The notes: generated from the letters alone by a model not told the origin. DNA of 59,505 nt from a virus (IMGVR_UViG_3300025141_000095:1-59505); one strand, 5' to 3'; positions 1 through 21,661 are shown, counted from the first letter of the stretch. Numbers and translations: made by a program.

Positions 1-360
1 TCTATTGAGCAGAACGAATCCCTCGTTCATATCGTCATCAAAGCCGGAGATCTCGACCAGAGACCCCGGAGTCGACGTGCCAATCCCTACTCGGCCGGAA
101 CCGGTTACAAAAAGAACCGTTCCGCTCACCGCGCCGTCGACCTGCAGAAGCGCTTCGTCGCCCGAAGAGGAAACGTGCAAGCTTGCGCTTGGGAACTGAG
201 TACCAATGCCGACTCTATTTGTGCCGCCGTTGACAAAAAGCATGTTTGGCTCACCGCTAGATTCAACACGGAAATCGTGATCCTTGCCGCCTTCATTGGA
301 TATAAAGCTGCCATAGCCGGTAAAGCTGTTGGCCGATCCGGTAGCATTAATAGGCATTAG
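1..360 (-). CDS. Tail fibre-like protein, N-terminal part (runs off the window)
   Basis: This reading frame starts with ATG at 360, overlapping the stop of the upstream fibre gene (TAATG), and stays open to base 1, so the gene is truncated by the window edge. The 120 visible residues begin MPINATGSANSFTGYG and contain two copies of the VGIGT motif that is common in phage tail-fibre shafts and tips, plus the segment LFVTGSGRVGIGTSTPGS. It is a paralogue of the C-terminal third of the upstream 1430-residue fibre: the block from SSSGDEALLQVDG to RVGIGT is nearly the same in both, at protein and DNA level. The role is inferred to be a second fibre or fibre tip recognising the host surface. The receptor-binding end is not visible. 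Confidence 0.75.
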
Positions 361-3300
361 TCTTCTATCTCCTCCATCAAAAGTTTAAATCGCTTTCCGG
401 TTTTGTTGTTCTTTATAGTTAGATAGTCTTCTTCCTCAACAACAGTCCAATCTCCGCGTTCATTAGCCAAGTGTAAGTCGCCAGTATAAACATTTGCCCA
501 TCGCATTGCGGATGAGCCTAGGTCGTGTGAATTATCTGCTCCGGGCAAAATGCTTCCCGTAACGTGAAGGGCACCATTAACTGCTAATTGAGCCGTGGGC
601 GTTGCCGTACCGATGCCGATTCTATCATCGCCGGGGGTAAGGCTACTAGAAACATAGAGCGCTGTTCTACCCAACGAGTTCTTGAACTCATATCCAACAA
701 AATTGGTCTGATTGCCCCGAAATTCTAAAAAGCCGGCGCTATTGCGACCCATTTTGTAGTAGTTAACTCCACCATGTCCCAATCGTAGCTGATCGCCTAG
801 GGTATCTCCGAGAATGTCTAAGGTGGTGGCCGGCGTTACCGTACCTATACCAACTCGGCCGGATCCGGTTACAAAAAGAACCGTTCCGTTCGTCGCGCCG
901 TCGACCTGCAGAAGCGCTGCGTCGCCCGAAGATGAAACATGCAAGCTTGCGCCTGGCGCCTGAGTACCAATGCCGACATTGCCCGTGGACTGCTCAAAGT
1001 AATAGCCGACTCCCCCCAAGGCGCCAGAAATCTGGAAATCGAGGCTTGAGACGAGTTGAATTTGGTGTTTGCTCGAGTAGGTCCCATAGATCTGGTGGGA
1101 GTATGTAGTCCCTGGTGTGCCGAACCTGAGCGCCGGGCCGCTGGCGGGATATAACTCTATAGCTGCCGCATCTGATGCTACAAGAATACTGGCGTCGGAC
1201 ACGGACCCCGAAACATGTAACTTCTTCGAAGGCGCGCCGGTACCAATGCCGACAGATCCAGATCGGAAAAGAGCAGCGTAATTCGTATCTGCGCCGGCAA
1301 CACTTACATCCAAACCAATATTTGATACTGTTCCGCCGCTTAGGGCGGAAATAACATCGAGATCCATTCCCGTCATCGTTGATGTACCAACATTGGTGGC
1401 AGCATCATCCATATCAAGGTCTAGGCCAATGAAAGTGGATGTTTGACCAGAGGCAACGATTCCAGTCTTATCAAAATCTACATGCACAATAGGGCCAGCA
1501 GTGGTTGAAGTTGTTGTTGCATTGCCGGCATCAATAAACAACGCTTTTCCAGTAGTTAGCGCTGTTGCTGCTACGTCAATAACATTTGCCGTCGTTTGGG
1601 ATGCATCAATATCAACAGCTATCTGATCAACATCCGCTGCGGTGACCAATAAAGCTGGAAGACCACTGGGGCCATGACCGTTCACATACTGATTTATTTC
1701 AAGTACGCCGCCCGGGGCCCCTGAGCTAGCTCCGATCTGAACCGCTTCGGTACCAGCATCAACAAAAAGCGCATTCGACATATTGGCTGTTTCAACCCTG
1801 AAATCGCAGTCGATTCCGGCATCATTGACAACTACTTCGCATGCGGTGCCGTTTGTTACATCCTCGCCACCGATTGATAAGAGATTTGTAGCTCCCGCCG
1901 TTCCAGCGGTACCACCAGCAAATACATTAAACGTTAGTTTGCCGCCTTCGTCGGTCGCTGTTACGTCGCTAGCAATTGCATCCAGAGATACGTATGAAGT
2001 TGCTTGACCGCCGTCACCAACCCCATCAAATCTAATGGTACCAATAGACATGTCATCTGCTTCGGCAGTCGCGTCCGACCTATTCAATGATAAGATAACG
2101 GGCTTATCAGTTGCAGGGTTGGAATTCTTCAACTCAAGAAGCGGGTTTGTTTCTGCAGCTGTGGTTTCTATTACTGCGGTATTACTTCCCGCTATGGCAT
2201 CGTTTAGAACATGGAGTACGGTAGTTGCGACAGCTGACGCATTATCATTGTGAATGAGTGCCAAAGTGTTTGCATCTGTATTAGATGAGTCAGACACAAG
2301 ATTAAGAATCTTGCCGGTTGTTAATCCATCTGCGGTAACATCAATCACGTTAGCGGTTGTTACAGCATCAGCCACGATATCAATAACATCAGCATCAATA
2401 TTGGCAGCATCAATATGAAGCGCCATTTTGTCCGTATCATTGCTATCGAGAATAAGGAGCGGGACGCCACCATCGCTAGCGTTAGCGATTTCTAGCGTAG
2501 CAGCCGGAGCATCTGTTGAGTCGCCAATGCTTACTCGATTGGAAGAGCCTTCAACAAAAATCATGTGAGTCTCATCTACTGATTCAACACGGAAATCAAC
2601 ATCCAGGCCGCCTTCGTTGAATACTGCTTCGTCGCCCGCTTTTGCTTCTACAACTATCTTTCCATCGGCATCCAATGTAAGATCGGCGTCGTCATTTGAG
2701 TCGTCATCCACAGTAGCAAGCGTGGTGGCGCCATGAGTGGTGGTCGTAATCGAGAAAAAGTCCCCAGTATCAACAGAACTTACAGCCTTAAAGTCCGTAC
2801 CTCCGTCAGCACAGTTGATAATTAAGCCGTTATTGGTGTCTGCGCCGGTGGTCGTGAGTTCCATACCGGTGGCTGTACTAGTGCCGTCTGTGTGGCCAGT
2901 GACGGTGACGTCGTGGCCCACCACAGTGGATGTACCTCGGCTTCGCGAAGTGACATCCAGATGAATGCCGATATCGTTGTGCGCGGCGGAACCAGAAGCC
3001 GCAACGGTTCTGACAAAGTCAATGTATAATCCTGTTGCATCTTGTGCTGCCACGCCGGATGCGTTTTTGTCAAGAAACATACCGGTATTTCCGCCATCAG
3101 ACTGAACTGTCAAAGCAGTAGCGCCAGTGGCAGAAGCGTGAGCTTGTACAATCTCAACACTATTTCTTGTGGTGGCATTGGCTGAATTGTCGCCTATATA
3201 TACCGCTTTGCCGTCGGTGAGGGCGGATGTTGATACATCTAATGCTACGCCAGCTGTGAGCGCATTGCCATCAATTTCTGCAACGATGCCTGTCGTTTGT

Positions 3301-4649
3301 TCTGAGTCAATCCGGAGTGCGCGGCCGGCGGTACCATCAGTGCCATCAAAGTCTATATCTAAGCCGACAATTGCGTTTGAGTCAGAGAGGTTGGCTGCAT
3401 CTTTTACAATCTTGGCAACCGAATAAGCATCTGTAGAGGTTCCAGAAGCATTAGCATAAAGTAGATTAGCTCCAATTAAACCATTGCTTGTACTTGTTAC
3501 TCCAATTCCTTTTCCTGACGTAAGCGCATCAGCAGAAAGGTCAACACCTGTTCCTGTAGTAAGAGCATCGCCATTAATCTCGGCAACTACGCCGGTTGTC
3601 TGCTCGGAGTCGATTCTGAATGCGCGGCCGGCGGTACCATCAGTGCCATCAAAGTCTATATCTAAGCCGACAATTGCGTTTGAGTCAGAGAGGTTGGCTG
3701 CATCTTTTACAATCTTGGCAACCGAATAAGCATCTGTAGAGGTTCCAGAAGCATTAGCATAAAGTAGATTAGCTCCAATTAAACCATTGCTTGTACTTGT
3801 TACTCCAATTCCTTTTCCTGACGTAAGCGCATCAGCAGAAAGGTCAACACCTGTTCCTGATGTTAGTATATCTCCATTAATCTCGGCCACAATGCCTGTC
3901 GTTTGTTCTGAGTCGATTCTGAATGCCCGGGCATTAGCGGCCGCTCCTGTGTCAAAGTCGATGTCTAAGCCAATACTGGCAGCATCACCGGCCCTGTCGC
4001 CTGATTGGGCAATCTTTACTAAGGCACCAGCGGAGTTATTTGTTGCGGTTGTTGAAATGTTTAACGCGGGACCGGTTGTTAAAGCATTTGCGGTTATATC
4101 GAGTACGGCCGCTGTAGTATTGCTAGCATCAATATCAATACCAATTTCCGTCGTGTTTGCAAGATTAATATCAACACCAACGACGTCGTCGTCATCATGA
4201 TCTATAAGCAACGTTGGGACGGAGGTAGCTGAGCCCCCCTGGACTTGAAGTGTAGCTAATGCACCTATCGTTCCGATACCTACATATGGGATTGCTCCGT
4301 TAGCGCTGGCCGTCGCCCAAAAAACCGGTGTTGAAAGAGTGCTTGCGCGGAGAGAGCCGGTTCTTGCATGTACATCGTCATTGGTGTTTCCAAAGAATGT
4401 TGATCCCGTAGCATCAATAACCGAAATATTTTCATATTTGATCACGCTGGCACTAAGCGAGCCAGTTATCACCATGTTGCCTGATAATACTAAAGTGTTC
4501 GCAGCGCCGTGATATACCGAAGCGGTATGAAACATAAAATGTTGGCTACCATTGATCGAAGTACCGTGTGAATGAAACTGTACGGAACCAGTCGGGCCGC
4601 TGCCCGTGGCAAAATCAGCGCAACCTACATATGCCCAGCCGCTAGCCAT
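357..4649 (-). CDS. Long repeat-built tail fibre protein (1430 aa)
   Basis: A very long, low-complexity fibre protein rich in D, A, T, G and S. The middle (about residues 130-1050) is built of degenerate repeats of the type ALTTGTGVDLSADALTSGKG, including two nearly identical 101-residue units. The last third carries several VGIGT...P..LHVSGS elements, as in many phage fibre tips. The C-terminus (LHLANERGDWTVVEEEDYL, then NNKTGKRFKLLMEEIED) resembles the conserved end of tail fibres in T4-like aquatic phages. The start ATG at 4649 follows the preceding gene by 6 bases. I infer a trimeric fibre whose length changes by repeat gain or loss. No peptidase S74-type chaperone motif was seen. The exact attachment point on the virion is unknown. 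Confidence 0.85.
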   Translation of the reverse strand: MASGWAYVGCADFATGSGPTGSVQFHSHGTSINGSQHFMFHTASVYHGAANTLVLSGNMVITGSLSASVIKYENISVIDATGSTFFGNTNDDVHARTGSLRASTLSTPVFWATASANGAIPYVGIGTIGALATLQVQGGSATSVPTLLIDHDDDDVVGVDINLANTTEIGIDIDASNTTAAVLDITANALTTGPALNISTTATNNSAGALVKIAQSGDRAGDAASIGLDIDFDTGAAANARAFRIDSEQTTGIVAEINGDILTSGTGVDLSADALTSGKGIGVTSTSNGLIGANLLYANASGTSTDAYSVAKIVKDAANLSDSNAIVGLDIDFDGTDGTAGRAFRIDSEQTTGVVAEINGDALTTGTGVDLSADALTSGKGIGVTSTSNGLIGANLLYANASGTSTDAYSVAKIVKDAANLSDSNAIVGLDIDFDGTDGTAGRALRIDSEQTTGIVAEIDGNALTAGVALDVSTSALTDGKAVYIGDNSANATTRNSVEIVQAHASATGATALTVQSDGGNTGMFLDKNASGVAAQDATGLYIDFVRTVAASGSAAHNDIGIHLDVTSRSRGTSTVVGHDVTVTGHTDGTSTATGMELTTTGADTNNGLIINCADGGTDFKAVSSVDTGDFFSITTTTHGATTLATVDDDSNDDADLTLDADGKIVVEAKAGDEAVFNEGGLDVDFRVESVDETHMIFVEGSSNRVSIGDSTDAPAATLEIANASDGGVPLLILDSNDTDKMALHIDAANIDADVIDIVADAVTTANVIDVTADGLTTGKILNLVSDSSNTDANTLALIHNDNASAVATTVLHVLNDAIAGSNTAVIETTAAETNPLLELKNSNPATDKPVILSLNRSDATAEADDMSIGTIRFDGVGDGGQATSYVSLDAIASDVTATDEGGKLTFNVFAGGTAGTAGATNLLSIGGEDVTNGTACEVVVNDAGIDCDFRVETANMSNALFVDAGTEAVQIGASSGAPGGVLEINQYVNGHGPSGLPALLVTAADVDQIAVDIDASQTTANVIDVAATALTTGKALFIDAGNATTTSTTAGPIVHVDFDKTGIVASGQTSTFIGLDLDMDDAATNVGTSTMTGMDLDVISALSGGTVSNIGLDVSVAGADTNYAALFRSGSVGIGTGAPSKKLHVSGSVSDASILVASDAAAIELYPASGPALRFGTPGTTYSHQIYGTYSSKHQIQLVSSLDFQISGALGGVGYYFEQSTGNVGIGTQAPGASLHVSSSGDAALLQVDGATNGTVLFVTGSGRVGIGTVTPATTLDILGDTLGDQLRLGHGGVNYYKMGRNSAGFLEFRGNQTNFVGYEFKNSLGRTALYVSSSLTPGDDRIGIGTATPTAQLAVNGALHVTGSILPGADNSHDLGSSAMRWANVYTGDLHLANERGDWTVVEEEDYLTIKNNKTGKRFKLLMEEIED
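3318..3859 (-). repeat. Tandem 303-bp repeat inside the tail fibre gene
   Basis: Bases 3318-3556 recur without a visible mismatch at 3621-3859, so the unit is 303 bp (101 codons) and the identical core is 239 bp. It encodes the block starting AGRAFRIDSEQTTG and running through ASGTSTDAYSVAKIVKDAA. More diverged copies flank it. The reading frame is preserved, which suggests recent duplication by recombination in a fibre shaft. Confidence 0.9.
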
Positions 4650-5100: not shown

Positions 5101-5125
5101 AAATAGTCTTCTATAATAACTATTT
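5101..5125 (-). other. AT-rich stem-loop at the end of the bS21-like gene
   Basis: AAATAGT at 5101-5107 and ACTATTT at 5119-5125 are complementary, forming a 7-bp stem with an 11-base loop that overlaps the bS21 stop codon. It has no G/C-rich stem and only a weak T run, so it is a poor intrinsic terminator. It could be an RNA-stability or attenuation element, or chance. Confidence 0.2.
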
Positions 5126-5335
5126 CCTTTTAAAGCGTTTTCTTTCTAAACGTTCTTTTTCTCTCCGTGCTTTTTTTGATTTGATCTTCCTTTTAACAGA
5201 GGGTTTTATGTAATAAGCGGTCTTGCCGCGATATGTTTCTAGAATGCCCTCTTTCTTAACTTTTTTGATAAACCTTCTGATTAATCTTTCTGAGCTTTCA
5301 TTTGGTCTTCTCGTCACTATTACATTGTCTGCCAC
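5120..5335 (-). CDS. rpsU: Phage-encoded ribosomal protein bS21 homologue
   Basis: This 71-residue, strongly basic protein has the layout of bS21, the small-subunit protein near the anti-Shine-Dalgarno end of 16S rRNA that helps initiate translation. An N-terminal strand leads into RRPNESSERLIRRFIKKVKK, corresponding to the E.F..ALRRFKR..EKAG part of cellular bS21. It is followed by EGILETYR, an aromatic YYIKPSVKRKIK (cellular form: FYEKPTxxRKR), and a Lys/Arg-rich helical tail. Phage-borne bS21 is known from aquatic phages, including T4-like ones; it is thought to exchange into host ribosomes and favour viral mRNAs. The gene lies alone between the 150-residue protein and a virion protein, in the late-gene direction. 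The length matches the family. The functional effect is inferred. Confidence 0.9.
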   Translation of the reverse strand: MADNVIVTRRPNESSERLIRRFIKKVKKEGILETYRGKTAYYIKPSVKRKIKSKKARREKERLERKRFKRK

Positions 5336-5344
5336 AGAGCACCT

Positions 5345-5797
5345 CTATTTTCCTGCATCGATATGAGCTTTCCAGTTCTTACCAACGCTGCCGAGCAATC
5401 CTGATATATCTACTCCGGGATCGCTGGGCGCTACGCCGGACAGGGCGCCTTGCGCTGTCTGAGGTGCGCCAGGAGCAGCACCCGCGGAAGTTATCGGGGT
5501 CGTGCCCTCAAATAGATTTACGCCATTATATGCGTTCTCTCCCATGGCGCCCATAAGCTTCTTTCTATGCTCGTCTATCTTTTGTTTTTGTTCTTGCAAA
5601 GATTGCTGTCGCATCTCAGCAAAGTTGTTTTCTTCTGCTTTTGGCTCGGGCTGTTGAGCTTCAACAATTTGAACTCCACCCATTCCACGAGCGACCTCTG
5701 ATACAACTCCTGATAAAACGCCGTCCTCAAATATCACCTCCTTGATACATTCTTTTATCAGTGGCTTGAGCAGCTTCTTTAGTTCTGCCTTGTTCAT
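5345..5797 (-). CDS. Conserved phage protein, possible prohead-associated (150 aa)
   Basis: It overlaps the stop of the upstream 1048-residue gene by four bases (ATGA-type junction), so the two are likely translationally coupled. The N-terminus (MNKAELKKLLKPLIKECIKE) is a basic, amphipathic helix carrying I-K-E twice and then I-F-E at residues 14-24. The middle is a Gln/Glu/Lys-rich helix (QEQKQKIDEHRKKLMG) and the C-terminal half is a flexible Ala/Pro/Gly stretch. There is no enzymatic motif. Position behind the prohead protease, and (L/I)xE motifs of the kind T4 gp21 cleaves, suggest a head or scaffold-associated substrate. Small proteins with a similar KKLIKP..KECI start occur in T4-like cyanophages, as far as I recall. 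Function is unproven. Confidence 0.65.
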   Translation of the reverse strand: MNKAELKKLLKPLIKECIKEVIFEDGVLSGVVSEVARGMGGVQIVEAQQPEPKAEENNFAEMRQQSLQEQKQKIDEHRKKLMGAMGENAYNGVNLFEGTTPITSAGAAPGAPQTAQGALSGVAPSDPGVDISGLLGSVGKNWKAHIDAGK

Positions 5798-8700
5798 TTA
5801 ATCCCCGACAACACTTTCCAACGTTCTAGTTCTTTAGCCTCTTGCTGCTGTTGCTGTTGTTGTACCTCGGCGCCTTGCTCTTCAAGCTCACCATAAACAA
5901 AATCAGCGATTGCCTGTGCTAAGGTGGCGTTCCAGTCGCCTGCGGGCCACTCGTTGCCGGCAGAGCCGTAATAAGGATGTAGCGCTTGGTTGCCAGACAG
6001 CTGTCCGCGAAGGAAATTTCTCAAGCTTTTTCTTACGTAGTTGGCACCATTTTTATTAACAAAAAACAGTATCTTGCCATCGCGGACATCCCCTTTGGTT
6101 TGGGGTGTAAGCTTGGCGCCAGAGCGCTTAGCATCGCCCTTGGCGCGAGCCAGCGTTGTTTTTCCGGTTTCCGCTGGCGCTTTCCTTGTTGGATCTGCTG
6201 GATCCGCGAGCCTAAATGCCTTTGAGACACTCTTGGTCCCGACAGCGGGCGCGGTGTCGTGCGCGCTGGCGGCTTCTCTTAGCTCTGCAAGAGCCTCCAA
6301 AACTGCCTCTCTTAGATCTGCATCTCGCGATTGATCATTTCGTAAGGAAACGACCGGTCGGGGGTTGGGGGATGGCCATTTGCTAATGTCAACGTTTCGA
6401 GCCAGTCCGTAAGCGCGTGCATTTGTCCACTCCATCCATTGCTCAACCCTGCCTAAAAGATCTTCTAGGCCCTTCTCATCGACTTTCCAGCCGTTTTCGG
6501 CTGCAAGGTCACGAACTGTTTTTTCTACAGAAGGTATATCGGCGCCGTCCACCGTTATCTCATATTGTTCTGGTTCGACTTCGATGCCGCCGCCAGGTCG
6601 CGACCCTGGTTTTACGCATTTGCCATCATCATCACGAATCATATCCTCCGGACACGGCTCATCGAGAGGGTTCGTAATAGTAATAACCTTCTGATCAATA
6701 AGATATTGTCTTATTTGATTTATTTGAATTTGCGTAAGATCTACATCAGAATCAATGTCAATATTAAGTTCTGTTTTAATGTTCTGGATTTGTTGGTTAA
6801 ACTTACTTTGATCTCTCTGATCAATATTAATATTGTCACCTTGCTTGATAACTTTTGTAAAGTTGTTAGTAACATTGTTAACTACGGTTTTATCACCACT
6901 TAGCTGTTGTATCAGTTTCACCAGCACGTCGATATCAACATTGGTGGGGGTGGTGCCACCCGGTCGCGGCGGATAGACCGTAACACAATCATCGCCCATC
7001 TCAGTCAGGCCTGGAGGACAGACGCACTTCTTTAGCTCCGGATCCCATTCTTTTATGTCCGGGCACTTTCCTTCTTCTTCATCCTTGCACCAGCCTATTT
7101 CCTTCCAGTCATCCCAGTGTTCGTTTGGTACAAACTTCCCGGTATCGGGACATATGCATCCCGGCTTCTCCGGATCCTCGCTGTTACGAAGACCCATATA
7201 GCCGCAATCTTCAGCAATAATCATATCTTTAATACACTTGCCTTGGCCGCCATCATCGCGAGGTGCTATTTCTGAAAATACATAGCCTTCGGGGCAATCG
7301 CATTTCTTTTCCTCTTCATTCCAGTCCGTTTTGCCTTGCAGCTTTTCTTCATCAGTAGAAGGACACTTGCCCGGCGGTGGCGGTGGCGGCGGGGGCTTCT
7401 CTTCGCACGGCGGTTCAGAACCATCAGGGCACTTTTCTGTTTCGTCGCAAGGTACATCTTTCATTGTGTCGACTTTTTTCTTGAGATAGGAGATGCGCGA
7501 GCCCCAGGTAAGCGCTTTGCCTTCCTCGTCTTTAGCACCGCGTCTCCAGAACGCAGCTGTGCCGGCAGCCGCGGCCATAGAGGCTGCTAGGCCCAACAAA
7601 AATGGGGCCCCTACTGCTCCAACGGCTTTTAAGACTTGATTTTTAAGAGTTGCTGCCGGAACTTGCCCGGCAGCTTCGAATCCAGATTTGGCGGACTCCT
7701 GTACGGCTGCTTCGAAATTGCCGGGATTTAGCGCAAATACAGTACCTCCTTGGCCTGACATGGGGCCCTCTATAAATAACTTATGAGGATCTAGATTGTT
7801 GGTTATAGCCTGCCCTAGGGCTGCTGGGCCACCAGGGTCGGCCATGACGCCCTCATGAGCAAACAATTTTCTCATGGCTGGCGTCAATGCCCCCAGGCCT
7901 GGGCCGCCGGCGCGGCCAAAGTTGGCGAAGTCTTCGCCTCCCATCGCGCGAACCGTTTTTATAATGCCATCTCCTTTGGAAACATTACCTATACTCTGTT
8001 TAACCGCTTGCCTAACAGCTGTTCTGGCAGCTGCGGATCCGGGCGCTGCTTCCATATCGGTCATACCTATCAATAGGTTTTGGAAGAAATCTGAATTTAC
8101 AACGAAGCCGGCCACTGCAAAACCCGCGGCCCATTTAAGGAGGCCAAGCGGAAGTTCTTTGCTGTATGCTGCCTCGTAACCCTTTGCGGTTGCTCCCTGC
8201 TTGGCGCCAAGGTCTGTTTGTTCGCTAAAGCCCATCCTATAATAATACTGATCTTTCGTTCTATAGTCTTGAAAGTAAATTACTATATAACGCAGTACTG
8301 CTATACGAATATTGGCCGTTACACAATTGATCTTCTCGGCTTCAAAATCCTTTACAATCGCTTCGTATACCTGACTAAGACGCTCGCTCTCGGACTTAAA
8401 GTCGCTGGCAGTTGGCTCGTTTGGAAAACGTCGTTTATCCAGCTGGGTATAAACATTTTGCATGATTGCGGCGCCTTCGGGATCGATCTCTTTTAATTTC
8501 GTGAGTTGAGCCGCGACTTCTGCCTTTGCGTTGTCTTTCGCTTGCCTTCGCTCCTTAGAATGTAAAACCTCTTCGCCGCCAAGCAAGGTGCCTTCTGCGC
8601 CGCCCCATGCCCATTCCGGGGCAAGGATATCCCACACGCCCGGAAGATTAACATTGATATCAGTCCAGCCTTTCTTATCTGGTTCCCCGCCGAGATCTTT

Positions 8701-8940
8701 AAGTATTTGTTTTAGAGAGGTCTCATCATGATCTTTGAGTGTATCAAAAGAATAGATTTTATACTTATCAACCAGCTTATCACCATTGGGATCTAAGGTT
8801 TTAATTTGCTTAATAAGCTTTCTTTTATAGTTACCAAATAGCTCGTTAATCTCTTCTTCGGTAAGAACTATGCCTTTTACGGCAAACTCTTCTTTTATTA
8901 TTTGTTTAATCTGGCTTTCGGTCAGCGACTTTTTACTCAT
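5794..8940 (-). CDS. Large Cys-rich multi-domain protein of unknown function (1048 aa)
   Basis: I do not recognise a family for the whole protein. The N-terminus (MSKKSLTESQIKQIIKEEF) is an amphipathic helix with LTE and IKE motifs. Residues about 1-250 are helical and charged. Two hydrophobic stretches lie near residues 265-285 (LLKWAAGFAVAGFVV) and 440-462 (FLLGLAASMAAAAG). Residues about 493-660 hold some twenty cysteines in EGF-like spacing, for example CDCPEGYVF and KCVCPPGL, with an eight-proline run near 517. Residues about 660-760 are Asn/Asp/Gln-rich (NNVTNNFTKVI, QGDNINIDQRDQ). A further Cys pair and a helical C-terminal domain follow, ending in a glutamine run. It sits three bases after gp21, where T4 keeps scaffold genes. 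It could be an internal or ejected head protein or a large membrane-acting factor. The composition is unlike its neighbours. Confidence 0.7.
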   Translation of the reverse strand: MSKKSLTESQIKQIIKEEFAVKGIVLTEEEINELFGNYKRKLIKQIKTLDPNGDKLVDKYKIYSFDTLKDHDETSLKQILKDLGGEPDKKGWTDINVNLPGVWDILAPEWAWGGAEGTLLGGEEVLHSKERRQAKDNAKAEVAAQLTKLKEIDPEGAAIMQNVYTQLDKRRFPNEPTASDFKSESERLSQVYEAIVKDFEAEKINCVTANIRIAVLRYIVIYFQDYRTKDQYYYRMGFSEQTDLGAKQGATAKGYEAAYSKELPLGLLKWAAGFAVAGFVVNSDFFQNLLIGMTDMEAAPGSAAARTAVRQAVKQSIGNVSKGDGIIKTVRAMGGEDFANFGRAGGPGLGALTPAMRKLFAHEGVMADPGGPAALGQAITNNLDPHKLFIEGPMSGQGGTVFALNPGNFEAAVQESAKSGFEAAGQVPAATLKNQVLKAVGAVGAPFLLGLAASMAAAAGTAAFWRRGAKDEEGKALTWGSRISYLKKKVDTMKDVPCDETEKCPDGSEPPCEEKPPPPPPPPGKCPSTDEEKLQGKTDWNEEEKKCDCPEGYVFSEIAPRDDGGQGKCIKDMIIAEDCGYMGLRNSEDPEKPGCICPDTGKFVPNEHWDDWKEIGWCKDEEEGKCPDIKEWDPELKKCVCPPGLTEMGDDCVTVYPPRPGGTTPTNVDIDVLVKLIQQLSGDKTVVNNVTNNFTKVIKQGDNINIDQRDQSKFNQQIQNIKTELNIDIDSDVDLTQIQINQIRQYLIDQKVITITNPLDEPCPEDMIRDDDGKCVKPGSRPGGGIEVEPEQYEITVDGADIPSVEKTVRDLAAENGWKVDEKGLEDLLGRVEQWMEWTNARAYGLARNVDISKWPSPNPRPVVSLRNDQSRDADLREAVLEALAELREAASAHDTAPAVGTKSVSKAFRLADPADPTRKAPAETGKTTLARAKGDAKRSGAKLTPQTKGDVRDGKILFFVNKNGANYVRKSLRNFLRGQLSGNQALHPYYGSAGNEWPAGDWNATLAQAIADFVYGELEEQGAEVQQQQQQQEAKELERWKVLSGIK

Positions 8941-8942
8941 TT

Positions 8943-9545
8943 TTAATCCCTCAATACTTCATTCAAAGCACGGTTGATACGATCTGCTTTTGTAAATACT
9001 TCATTTATTCTATTCTTATTTTCTCGCATCATAAATGCACCAGGTGTTGAAGGTTCCGATACCATATCAAAACAGATTAGCTGAAAATCATCTTCAACTA
9101 TAGTTTGGCCGGAGCTCTCCGAGACGGATCCCAAGCCACGAGAAGAGATGCCGATAGAAACCCCAGAGTCTACTAAAGATCGGAGGATGCCTCCCGAAGG
9201 AGTATCAAGTACTTTCATCTTTCCCATCACCCTGTTATCGTCCATCCAAATATCAGTTATCTGATGAGAAACGTTTCGAAGATTAATGACTGACTCTTCG
9301 GGATGGTCTAGTTCTCCTAGTGCGCGGTTATCATCAACAAGCTTCTTGTAGTTTTTCACTTCTCGTTCTAAAATCTTTTGAGGATAGATGCGTCCATTGC
9401 CGTTTTGGGTTTCTGCCATCTGCATCATACCAGATAGCATCATACCGCCAGCAGTAACAAACTTCTTTTCAGCTTCTGTAAGGAGATCCTGACAGGCACC
9501 TCCATCACAAAGCTCATAATATTCTCGGAGAAGTACCTTAGTCAT
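8943..9545 (-). CDS. 21: Prohead core protease, T4 gp21-like
   Basis: A 200-residue serine protease of the T4 gp21 / herpesvirus assemblin type, which matures the T4-like prohead by cutting scaffold and capsid proteins after (L/I)xE. Visible signatures are QNGNGRIYP near 47-55, the catalytic histidine in GELDHPEE (His81) and the serine loop GVSIGISSRGLG (128-139), with the nucleophile in the SS pair. The segment DFQLICFDMVSEPSTPGA (about 152-170) is also typical. The length is close to T4 gp21 (212 aa). The start ATG at 9545 lies three bases after the upstream stop. L-R-E and L-T-E at residues 6-8 and 22-24 could be self-cleavage sites, as T4 gp21 processes itself. Confidence 0.93.
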   Translation of the reverse strand: MTKVLLREYYELCDGGACQDLLTEAEKKFVTAGGMMLSGMMQMAETQNGNGRIYPQKILEREVKNYKKLVDDNRALGELDHPEESVINLRNVSHQITDIWMDDNRVMGKMKVLDTPSGGILRSLVDSGVSIGISSRGLGSVSESSGQTIVEDDFQLICFDMVSEPSTPGAFMMRENKNRINEVFTKADRINRALNEVLRD

Positions 9546-18505: not shown

Positions 18506-21500
18506 TTAGATTTCAACGTGGGCGTAGTTGCCCTTTTTATCTATTATTATCTGGGTGTCTACGCAATCTTTTAAACTATCGAGATGAGAAATCAAAATAA
18601 CTGTCTTAAAATAAGACTTGATTATTTCTAGAATACGGACAAACCCTTCCATATTATCAGCGTCCAGAGCGGTTCCTGGCTCATCAAGAATAAATATGTC
18701 GCCCTTGGGGAGATTAGATACGCTCAACAACGCCAGCCGAATAGCCATTGCAGCTATTGTCTTCTCTGCGCCGGAACCCATTTCTAGCGGCCGAGGTTCG
18801 TGTTTGGGGTGTTTAATGAAAATATTAAGACGCTTTCCGTCGTCTTCGAAGAAAGCTTCAAAAGAAACTATATTGGCCAGCACCTTTGCAATCTCATCAT
18901 TAATCGCCGGCAGCTGTTTCTTGATGATATCATATGCAATACCATTGGAATGCATACAGCGCATATAAAGATCATAAGCGGCATATTCTTGCTGAATATC
19001 CTTCATCTCTTTTTGCTGTTCCGTTAGATTGTGTTGCTTTTGTTCGAGGGAGCCCTTTAACTTGTAATATTCCAAAACCATATTCTGACATTCTTTGTCG
19101 CGCTTAACTAGTGTTTCAATCGCATTCAAAACATTCTGACGTTCTGTTGCGAAATGCTCAAAGTTTTCTATGGTCTCACGATTATCTTTGTATTCTTCAA
19201 TCTTTGCGTTGAGAGACAAAAGTTCGCCATGATATGATATAATGTTGTTTTTCTCTCGTGCGTACAGCAATTGTCGATCTTTAAGCCTGTATTCCTCTTC
19301 CGAACGAGAAGTAACAAGCTCATCATATCTTTGTCGATCAGATGAAATGCTTACAGGATCTAAATCTTTTAGAAAACCTTTAAGTTCCTTGGCGGTTGTT
19401 AAGCTCTCAAAAATCTTGTCTTTTAGGCGCGGTACCGCTTCCTTGGCTTTGTAGGCATCATGAATAAACTTGCAATGTGAATATTCACTTCCGCAAGGCA
19501 CTTCGTCTAGCAGTTTGAGTTTTGTGCTTTTAGTGTTATAATCTTTTTGTAGTAGTCTCACCTCATTAACAATCGTGTCTAGTTCATTTTGTTTTGAACT
19601 AATCTCTTCTTGCTTCTGATCTAGATCGTCGATGTCGAACTCATCAATAAACTTATTCAAATTTTCTATATGTGTCTTAAGTTTTTGTATAGACTCTCCG
19701 CGCTTCTTATTGGCTTCCTCGGCTGTAGATAGTTTAGATTTGAGTTCAATTTTCTTTTGCTCGGCTTCTATGATATCAACAACCTCCGCGGGGATGGAAT
19801 CCATTAAATCGTCAATCTCGTTTAGCTGAGCGTTCTTCGTGCTGATCTCTTCTTTTAGTCTCTCGCATCCCGCCTCTTGTTCTGCGAGTTGTTCGTTCGT
19901 CTTTTTGATTTCTTCTCTGGCTGCGCTTATATCCTCTTCAAAGTTGCGATCTCCAATCCTGCGCAGGACACCCTTCAAATCGGCGCTGTCTTCCTTTGCA
20001 AGCTTATATTTCTTCTCGAACACCTCCAGGTCCAAGAACTTGGCTAGAATCTCTTTACGGCGCGTAGAGCCCTCTTTAATGAAGGATAGTGAATCCAGCT
20101 GAGACGCCATCGATGTCAAGAGAAAATCCTCTATCGTACCGAAATGTTTACGAATAGCAGCATCGGTTTTCATTCTAGTGGTGTCATTGAGGCTATTATT
20201 TTCGCTCATAATAGGATCAAAATAATCAAAATCCAAATCCGTCTTGGCCTCGTCTGTAACTTCGCCCTTTAACTTCTTAACATACTTCTCCGACCGTCGA
20301 TCGATTGTGTATACTTTATCACCTATTTGAAGTTCAACCTTGGCGGCACACTTAGATTTGTGTTGATTGATTACGTTTAGATTCTTGCGTTCATTCTTAG
20401 ACGTGGTATTAAACATAGCATAAAGAAGGCCGTCGATAATACTAGACTTTCCAGAATAGTTCTTTCCAAATATTCCAACGATACCATTCAGCTTTTCGAA
20501 ATCAATTCGATTATTCTTGCCGTAGTTAAATAAGTTATCCCACTCAAAGTTGTTTAACTTCCAATTGATATTTCTTGCTACATCTTCGGTGGCCTCTGCC
20601 ATCTTATTATATTTCTGATTTAGATTATTAACCCGCTCCATCATCTCGTCAGTTGCTTCATAATCTTTAAGATACTCTTTCATCAATCTTTCTTGCACGG
20701 AAATATCTCGAAGGTTCTCTTTGAAGAAGCCGTTGCCGTTTACATTGATGCTTCCCCTCTGCCCTGCCGCTCTATTCAAGAAAGTGGTGCTTTCTGGCTT
20801 AAAGCGGTGCTTGGCAACCTCTACAGCCCTCTTCATAACGTTCAATGGAAGGTTGTTGTTACTTACAAGCCGTATACGGGCGCCTGGCGGGATTGTGATG
20901 CCTCGGGGCATCCTGCCCTTCGGAGTCAGTTCTATGGTCACAAAAGGCTTTGGGTTAAGCAATTTTATGTGCTTGACAGTGAAATCATCCTTGTTTTTGA
21001 TATCCCATATCAAAAAGCCCTTATCGTTCGTTTCTCCGTGGTTTTGTTGTACAATAGAGCCGCAATAGCGTACACGGCCTTCGGTATCGAGTATTTGATT
21101 GGTCTTGTGAATATCGCCAAGCAAAGCATAATCGTGATTGGCAAAAATAGAAACATCATGATCGCCATGTTCCATCACCCAGCCAATATCGGTTTGCACT
21201 CCGGCAATCGATCCATGATAAACCGCAATATTGATCTTATTTGGATCGGATGGTTCTACCCAGTTATCCTCGTCAAATATAGAAAGGACATTCATCGTTA
21301 AATCCGAGTTCATTTTAACTTCGCCCGAGTTCTTTAATAGATGAAGGCGGGGATGCTGCAGCGCTTCTACGATTGGAGTGATAGCATCCTGTCGCGACGA
21401 GTTGCGCAGGTTGCCATCGTGATTTCCCAGAATCAAATAAGTCGGCGCTATGTCTGCGAGGGTTGATAAAAACCTCGAACACATATCGACAAACTCTGGT

Positions 21501-21661
21501 GATATCTGTGTTTTAGTGTGGGCGATATCTCCGCCAATATAAATGAAATCTACTTCTTCTTCTCGAAGCGCTTCATACATTTGCTTAAATACCTCGCGAT
21601 ATTCATAATGATATTTTAGGTTCTTAATGTGGACGTCTGCGCAGTGCGCAATTTTATACAT
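18506..21661 (-). CDS. 47-46: Fused recombination nuclease-ATPase (gp47-gp46 / Mre11-Rad50 in one chain)
   Basis: One uninterrupted 1051-residue frame. Residues 1-330 are the Mre11/SbcD/gp47 phosphoesterase: CADVHI (Asp9, His11), GGDIAH (43-48), GNHDGN (79-84), VYHGSI (148-152) and LGDIHK (181-186). Residues about 365-1051 are the Rad50/SbcC/gp46 ATPase: Walker A GIFGKNYSGKSS (396-407), two long coiled-coil arms (about 550-715 and 740-900), an ABC signature region near GSGAEKTIAAMAIRLAL, and Walker B FILDEPGTALD (from 990). The apex holds CGSEYSHC (723-730) instead of the usual CxxC zinc hook. In T4 these are two genes acting together in recombination-dependent replication and host DNA breakdown. 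The next gene is the primase, upstream by 11 bases. Confidence 0.92.
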   Translation of the reverse strand: MYKIAHCADVHIKNLKYHYEYREVFKQMYEALREEEVDFIYIGGDIAHTKTQISPEFVDMCSRFLSTLADIAPTYLILGNHDGNLRNSSRQDAITPIVEALQHPRLHLLKNSGEVKMNSDLTMNVLSIFDEDNWVEPSDPNKINIAVYHGSIAGVQTDIGWVMEHGDHDVSIFANHDYALLGDIHKTNQILDTEGRVRYCGSIVQQNHGETNDKGFLIWDIKNKDDFTVKHIKLLNPKPFVTIELTPKGRMPRGITIPPGARIRLVSNNNLPLNVMKRAVEVAKHRFKPESTTFLNRAAGQRGSINVNGNGFFKENLRDISVQERLMKEYLKDYEATDEMMERVNNLNQKYNKMAEATEDVARNINWKLNNFEWDNLFNYGKNNRIDFEKLNGIVGIFGKNYSGKSSIIDGLLYAMFNTTSKNERKNLNVINQHKSKCAAKVELQIGDKVYTIDRRSEKYVKKLKGEVTDEAKTDLDFDYFDPIMSENNSLNDTTRMKTDAAIRKHFGTIEDFLLTSMASQLDSLSFIKEGSTRRKEILAKFLDLEVFEKKYKLAKEDSADLKGVLRRIGDRNFEEDISAAREEIKKTNEQLAEQEAGCERLKEEISTKNAQLNEIDDLMDSIPAEVVDIIEAEQKKIELKSKLSTAEEANKKRGESIQKLKTHIENLNKFIDEFDIDDLDQKQEEISSKQNELDTIVNEVRLLQKDYNTKSTKLKLLDEVPCGSEYSHCKFIHDAYKAKEAVPRLKDKIFESLTTAKELKGFLKDLDPVSISSDRQRYDELVTSRSEEEYRLKDRQLLYAREKNNIISYHGELLSLNAKIEEYKDNRETIENFEHFATERQNVLNAIETLVKRDKECQNMVLEYYKLKGSLEQKQHNLTEQQKEMKDIQQEYAAYDLYMRCMHSNGIAYDIIKKQLPAINDEIAKVLANIVSFEAFFEDDGKRLNIFIKHPKHEPRPLEMGSGAEKTIAAMAIRLALLSVSNLPKGDIFILDEPGTALDADNMEGFVRILEIIKSYFKTVILISHLDSLKDCVDTQIIIDKKGNYAHVEI

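Follow-up and report, generated by a model that had tools for sequence, protein, structure and literature searches.

A scaffold-type C-terminal tail on a candidate internal head protein encoded beside the prohead protease of a T4-like marine myovirus

The gene after the prohead protease

We analysed a stretch of 59,505 nucleotides from a virus (IMGVR_UViG_3300025141_000095:1-59505), hereafter the window, and in it the gene at 5794-8940 on the minus strand. The window is part of a T4-like myovirus genome in which a terminase, a portal protein (Portal_T4, E 1.2e-79) and a prohead protease (Peptidase_S77, E 4.7e-31) precede this gene. In related viruses the place between the protease gene and a conserved gene downstream may be empty or hold other genes; we call this place the slot and its products slot proteins. 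The features of the slot gene and its two borders, all on the minus strand, are as follows.

8943..9545, minus: prohead protease, gp21-like, Peptidase_S77 by Pfam; upstream border of the slot
5794..8940, minus: 1048-residue slot protein, proposed internal head (cargo) protein with a scaffold-type tail (open reading frame, homologues)
8833..8940, minus: N-terminal amphipathic segment, residues 1-36 (MSKKSLTESQIKQIIKEEFAVKGIVLTEEEINELFG), proposed removable propeptide ([LI]xE sites)
8833..8940, minus: [LI]xE sites LTE, IKE, LTE and INE within residues 1-36 (middle residue 8-1, 17-1, 28-1, 33-1)
8236..8577, minus: helical bundle, residues 122-235, the sole confidently predicted fold (AlphaFold, homologues)
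8098..8154, minus: hydrophobic segment 1, residues 263-281
7561..7635, minus: hydrophobic segment 2, residues 436-460, with a basic stretch and a conserved SR-x(3-4)-LKK helix after it
6985..7449, minus: Cys-rich region, residues 498-652, 15 Cys in CPxG...GKC modules, varying among family members
7372-7395, minus: run of eight Pro inside the Cys-rich region
6670..6951, minus: Asn/Gln-rich stretch, residues 664-757, missing from the L004 homologue
5842..5862, minus: run of seven Gln, residues 1027-1033, present also in L001 and L004
5797..5823, minus: C-terminal tail RWKVLSGIK, residues 1040-1048, proposed scaffold-type docking peptide
5345..5797, minus: conserved 150-residue protein, downstream border of the slot, its start overlapping the slot-gene stop (ATGA)

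The open reading frame (ORF) begins with ATG and is separated by two bases from the protease gene upstream. Full-length homologues in two other loci, L001 (84-88% identity) and L004 (41-49%), indicate that the gene is real and not a chance reading frame. The original prediction, made by a model from the sequence of the window, had described a protein of this length directly after a prohead protease, and both the ORF and its protease neighbour were found as described. Its account of the composition held for the most part: the two hydrophobic segments (19-residue segments), the octaproline run (residues 516-523) and an Asn-rich region (residues ~660-760, 12 N and 13 Q per 100) are all seen. The protein is Cys-rich as claimed, with 18 cysteines instead of about twenty, 15 of them within residues 498-652. 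The supposed poly-Gln tail is a seven-Gln run that is not C-terminal, since EAKELE-RWKVLSGIK comes after it. EGF-like spacing was not borne out: EGF and Cys-rich domain models gave no EGF match to the whole protein or its pieces, and the cysteines are arranged as short CPxG...GKC modules. Most of the Cys array is missing from the family members in L035, L081 and L016, which makes it a variable insertion; we rejected it as the hallmark of the family, which is defined by the tail, clusters of cleavage sites at both ends and a body with two hydrophobic segments.

The prediction also held that no described family has this layout, which agrees with our searches. Pfam, PHROGs and PDB sequence searches with the whole protein, and Pfam searches with its pieces, found no domain; tblastn against 50,697 phage records (INPHARED) gave no match, and a scan of genome contigs turned up no relative. 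The L004 homologue has a partial CBM_14 match at residues 599-620. An AlphaFold model of the whole protein built from 13 sequences had a mean predicted local distance difference test score (pLDDT) of 49.6 and was confident only at residues ~130-230; residues 100-500 modelled separately reached 56.6. Fold searches with these models against the PDB and viral models gave no match at E <= 0.001. Within the helical bundle an FPN...AN region is conserved, being common to L004, L008, L035, L081, L016, L023, L039 and L055.

A hypervariable slot and a scaffold-type tail

We surveyed the slot in 80 fetched loci with relatives of the protease, of which 66 were informative and 14 were contigs that end before the slot is resolved. 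Between the protease and the homologue of the 150-residue gene (~140-150 residues), the slot is filled in 31/66 loci and empty in 35/66. Where it is empty the flanking genes frequently overlap by 13 bases, and where it is filled one or more extra genes occupy gaps of 508-3098 bases and encode products of 84-1048 residues. The body of the window's slot protein is partly common to proteins in L004, L008, L035, L217 and L081, and parts of it occur in L016, L023, L039, L055, L218 and L227. The members sharing this body have other N-termini (for instance FSSF...W[KR]DYL in L035 and L217, compared with LTESQIKQIIKEEF in the window protein); ends and bodies are thus swapped independently. The tailed proteins, 29 in number, fall into nine body families with no mutual similarity detectable at E 1e-3; together with the 35 empty slots, this is the hypervariability of body known from T4-type internal proteins.

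What the large slot proteins have in common is a C-terminal motif, [R/H]W[KRHQ]x[LI][AS]G[IL]K, which reads RWKVLSGIK in the window protein and takes the form [R/H]W[KQ]x[LI][AS]GI across the nine body families. Among the loci of the first set, it is carried by each of the 12 complete slot proteins with at least 479 residues and by 2/19 shorter ones; in L071 and L076 extra residues lie beyond it. A close match to the tail ends the probable scaffold. The window stops short of the scaffold and capsid genes, and L001 runs on through them in the order protease, slot gene, 150-residue gene, fibre-like repeat genes, a 348-residue acidic protein and the major capsid protein (phrog_138, 5e-50). From this order the 348-residue protein, which lies before the capsid gene, is the probable scaffold and the slot gene is not. 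The original prediction had thus been right that the gene lies where T4 keeps its scaffold gene, with the probable scaffold itself encoded further downstream; we rejected the slot gene as scaffold because another protein precedes the capsid gene and the slot gene is optional. The probable scaffold ends in RMKKLAGIK, close to the slot-protein tail, and the scaffolds of cultured phages end similarly, SRWQKLAGIIK in Flavobacterium phage immuto (ISEVSEQVSRWQKLAGIIK), whose scaffold is gp067 and slot protein gp069, and ERMKKLAGIVK in Microcystis phage Mel-JY01 (LNESNNVVERMKKLAGIVK). Across 12 scaffolds with 24-70% identity to the first, four tail residues (R, L, A and G) never vary. The window slot protein fits the pattern of the clade's scaffold tails, R-x-x-x-[LI]-[AS]-G-[IL].

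Within the clade the tail is largely confined to these two kinds of protein. In the fetched loci, tailed ORFs on the coding strand are nearly all slot proteins or the probable scaffold, and on the reverse strand 1/1697 ORFs is tailed. In G005 (195,690 bases) and G003 (170,861 bases), both scanned as whole records, and in most of the immuto genome the scaffold alone has it. Since the motif had been derived from the fetched loci, we checked it by two scans of the whole IMG/VR collection for WKx[LI][AS]GIK followed by a stop, one for TAA/TAG and one for TGA. The TAA/TAG scan yielded 94 in-frame proteins, about three quarters of them scaffolds, 18 belonging to a second large class and one an obvious chance match. 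Slot genes use TGA, as their stop overlaps the ATG of the next gene, and in the TGA scan 16/16 protease-containing loci of the RWK type had a tailed ORF directly after the protease, five of these being contigs already surveyed.

Three further arrangements of tailed proteins were seen. Members of the second class, 670-917 residues long (MDFKSLLSQLDQLNEA...) and with no known domain, end in NES-x(0-4)-DWKKLAGIK (L168:4031-6739, L190:8717-11098, L154:2206-4548 on the minus strand, and similar); where checked, their neighbours are genes for the tail tube, head closure and tail sheath in another T4-like group. L053:8941-9996 and L057:8941-9996 encode a 351-residue tailed protein (ESRFDRWREIAGLLRS) before the protease, the slot after the protease being empty, as if cargo could move between two slots. 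In L223 (4730-4852, minus-strand coordinates) a 40-residue ORF that is mostly tail (LREHRRLKRWKVLAGIK) follows the protease and is possibly a slot remnant.

Protease sites and N-terminal peptides

The consensus of the T4 prohead protease is [LI]xE. Cleavage by this enzyme occurs after Glu (PMC5694885). We counted such sites over 43 slot proteins, related sequences included, and compared them with 1000 composition-preserving shuffles. The density per 100 residues is 4.5 over residues 1-40, falls to 1.0 in the body and rises again to 3.9 ahead of the tail. The N-terminal count is 77, where the shuffles gave 26 and never more than 39; ahead of the tail it is 22, where they gave 6 and at most 16. 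With the looser pattern [LIV]xE, a site lies at most 24 residues upstream of 28/31 tails, compared with 24% of body windows. The window slot protein has four [LI]xE sites in its first 35 residues and then only one more before residue 570. As in T4 internal proteins, such a site closes its N-terminal peptide by sequence, and the dense internal gp21 sites typical of gp22 are lacking: the slot-protein body has 0.9 per 100, whereas scaffolds have 2.9-5.3, the 150-residue neighbour 4.7 and T4 gp22 6.0. With sites so few in the body and so many in the scaffolds and the neighbour, it is more likely that the body is kept and the others are destroyed, and the high density in the 150-residue protein suggests that it may be a degradable core protein.

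The N-terminal peptides are of at least two types. Many slot proteins start with W-x-x-F-L-x-E (WREFLNE, WRKFLTE, WKSFLNE), and a single motif, W/Y-x-x-F-[LI]-x-E, fits these and the start of T4 IPII and IPIII, MKTYQEFIAEA (in its MKTYQEFIAE part). The pattern occurs in 0.4-3% of background ORFs, some of which are themselves tagged proteins. The second type, QIKQIIKEEF, is that of the window protein and is found also on three small proteins in the L079 slot and three G005 proteins.

An N-terminal tag of the first kind (WR-x-Y-L-N-E or similar) was also seen outside the slot on three minus-strand genes: a Nudix-domain protein (L092:17193-17651, 5.2e-18), a protein with a HAD-like DFDDT motif and a weak DUF2608 match (L092:6993-7592), and a 753-residue protein that matches Peptidase_M23 (2.5e-6) and, weakly, a nucleotidyltransferase (L100:3264-5525). 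From their tags these are candidate head cargo.

A proposed role in the head and other explanations

We consider it probable that the slot protein serves this T4-like marine myovirus as an accessory internal head protein, docked by its scaffold-mimicking tail, trimmed by the protease and kept with the DNA. The original prediction had offered an internal head protein as one option, and it gains support from the scaffold-type tail, from the protease sites clustered at both ends and from the gene's place in a hypervariable slot beside the protease. This interpretation draws on the analogy with T4 internal proteins, which are brought into the core by a targeting sequence, are cut free of it by gp21 and leave with the DNA at ejection (PMC3012670; PMC9958956). 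The slot protein would be made late, within the head block, and its last nine residues, by copying the scaffold tail, would bring it into the prohead core with the aid of a putative N-terminal targeting segment. Docking would take place at the site of the scaffold tail, probably on the inner face of the capsid protein or on the core itself. During prohead maturation the gp21-type protease would clip the N-terminal segment, probably the C-terminal region too, and destroy the scaffold, while the site-poor body would stay inside the head with the DNA. The slot, its variability, the common tail and the placing of the [LI]xE sites are read directly from sequence; docking, cleavage and retention are what we infer, and a further step is speculative: the body, with its helical bundle, two hydrophobic segments and Cys/Pro region, may be ejected with the genome and then either enter the envelope or counter a host defence. 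A membrane step is suggested by the hydrophobic segments, and disulfides forming in the periplasm, as had been envisaged, are possible, without support from conservation of the Cys region.

Several points weigh against this interpretation. The site beside the window protein's own tail is degenerate (KELE-RWK), in contrast to QLSE-SLQLNRWK in the L004 homologue, its N-terminus is not of the W-x-x-F-L-x-E type, and the specificity of the clade's protease is assumed to be that of T4. The scaffold was assigned from the place of its gene ahead of the capsid gene, its acidity and a coiled-coil-like sequence; a profile comparison of the clade scaffolds with T4 and cyanophage gp22 gave no significant match, nor did PHROGs. 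The DWKKLAGIK class beside tail-tube and head-closure genes means that the tail is maybe not exclusive to head-core proteins. Finally, we found no virion proteomics or cleavage data for the clade, including for the cultured phages immuto and Mel-JY01.

The alternative that survives best is that the slot protein, instead of being cargo, is an auxiliary scaffold or core protein which helps to fix the size or shape of the head before being broken down, as T4 gp22, gp67 and gp68 are. Its scaffold tail and the place of its gene in the head block beside the protease speak for this, and in some relatives, such as L223, little is left of the slot product. However, [LI]xE sites in the body are at background, with one between residues 36 and 570; around half of the relatives have an empty slot, and the bodies come from nine unrelated families, which fits cargo better. 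We regard this explanation as unlikely. We give still less credence to a virion protein that is exposed or acts elsewhere (in the neck, the tail or a membrane conduit), its tail being a general assembly peptide of late structural proteins. The hydrophobic segments, the Cys/Pro region and the gene neighbours of the DWKKLAGIK class would suit it, but the clade's tail sits on the scaffold and on protease-adjacent proteins, with the scaffold its only bearer in three surveyed genomes, and neither PHROGs similarity to tail proteins nor a significant fold match was found. That the protein is cytoplasmic or in the host membrane with no role in the virion, its position and tail being incidental, is very improbable: the ATGA overlap does put its last codons in the initiation region of the downstream gene, where they could serve as ribosome-binding context, but a ribosome-binding site does not explain the W-K and L positions, residues follow the tail in L071 and L076, and we rejected the tail as a by-product of the overlap because scaffolds with TAA or TAG and a downstream spacer carry the same one.

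If the slot proteins are internal head proteins, their kind is known and the apparent novelty is the scaffold tail on unrelated optional proteins, which we did not find described in open-licence papers. Like T4 IPI, IPII, IPIII and Alt, they are hypervariable, non-essential-looking and head-associated, and many have a short common N-terminal peptide followed by [LI]xE. Unlike these, they have their genes in the head block next to the protease and reach 1048 residues, the scaffold-type tail of the large ones has no counterpart in T4 internal proteins, and no sequence similarity was seen between the bodies. By analogy the window protein would work like a T4 internal protein, although we do not file it as one, its N-terminus being of another type. 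It ends like the clade scaffold (348-413 residues, before the capsid gene; RMKKLAGIK, RWQKLAGIIK) and, unlike a gp22-type scaffold, is optional and has few internal protease sites. The ends of T4 and cyanophage gp22 differ from the clade tail (..YAKVASRF, ..YLSALDRWSK, ..YIKAVSRFSK). Encapsulin cargo-loading peptides are also short C-terminal peptides that bring unrelated proteins into a shell; the shell context is another one, and the slot-protein peptide is common to the scaffold, its binding being a proposal. The inner-head ejection proteins of phiKZ and SPN3US have removable propeptides cut after Glu, and paralogues among them have near-identical N-termini (PMC5694885). Those propeptides are mostly at least 100 residues long and of other sequence, and we saw no scaffold-mimicking C-terminal tail described for them (PMC5694885).

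More generally, we lean slightly towards a two-ended loading code, in which unrelated proteins of this uncultured T4-like clade, up to ~1050 residues long, would enter the prohead through scaffold-like last nine residues, usually together with an N-terminal targeting peptide, and be trimmed by the protease at both ends. If this is true, the slot beside the protease is a swap site for injected effectors, head cargo can be read from sequence alone, and tagged enzymes encoded elsewhere, such as the Nudix-domain and M23-peptidase-like proteins, are further cargo. The choice of proteins for the T4 core was said to "remain mysterious" in a 2023 review (PMC9958956). A nine-residue tail on the scaffold and on nine unrelated neighbour families would offer an answer that is concrete and open to test, for one large clade of marine phages, and a simple sequence rule to predict head-carried phage proteins that may reach the host, where known examples of the kind, T4 IPI among them, defeat defences.

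Other genes of the window deserve mention. A gene for a 71-residue bS21-like ribosomal protein (phrog_21469, E 1.3e-4) lies in the head block at 5120-5335 on the minus strand, and Mel-JY01 has a bS21 gene at the equivalent place. At 357-4649 on the minus strand, a 1430-residue protein of repeated fibre-like units (..GLDIDFDGTDGTAGRAFRIDSEQTTG..), for which a PHROG search gave no match, is encoded between the protease and capsid genes and not with the tail fibres. A 1051-residue ORF at 18506-21661 on the minus strand is SbcD-like over residues 1-366 (phrog_100) and SbcC-like over residues 210-1048 (phrog_77), an apparent fusion of two recombination nuclease subunits.

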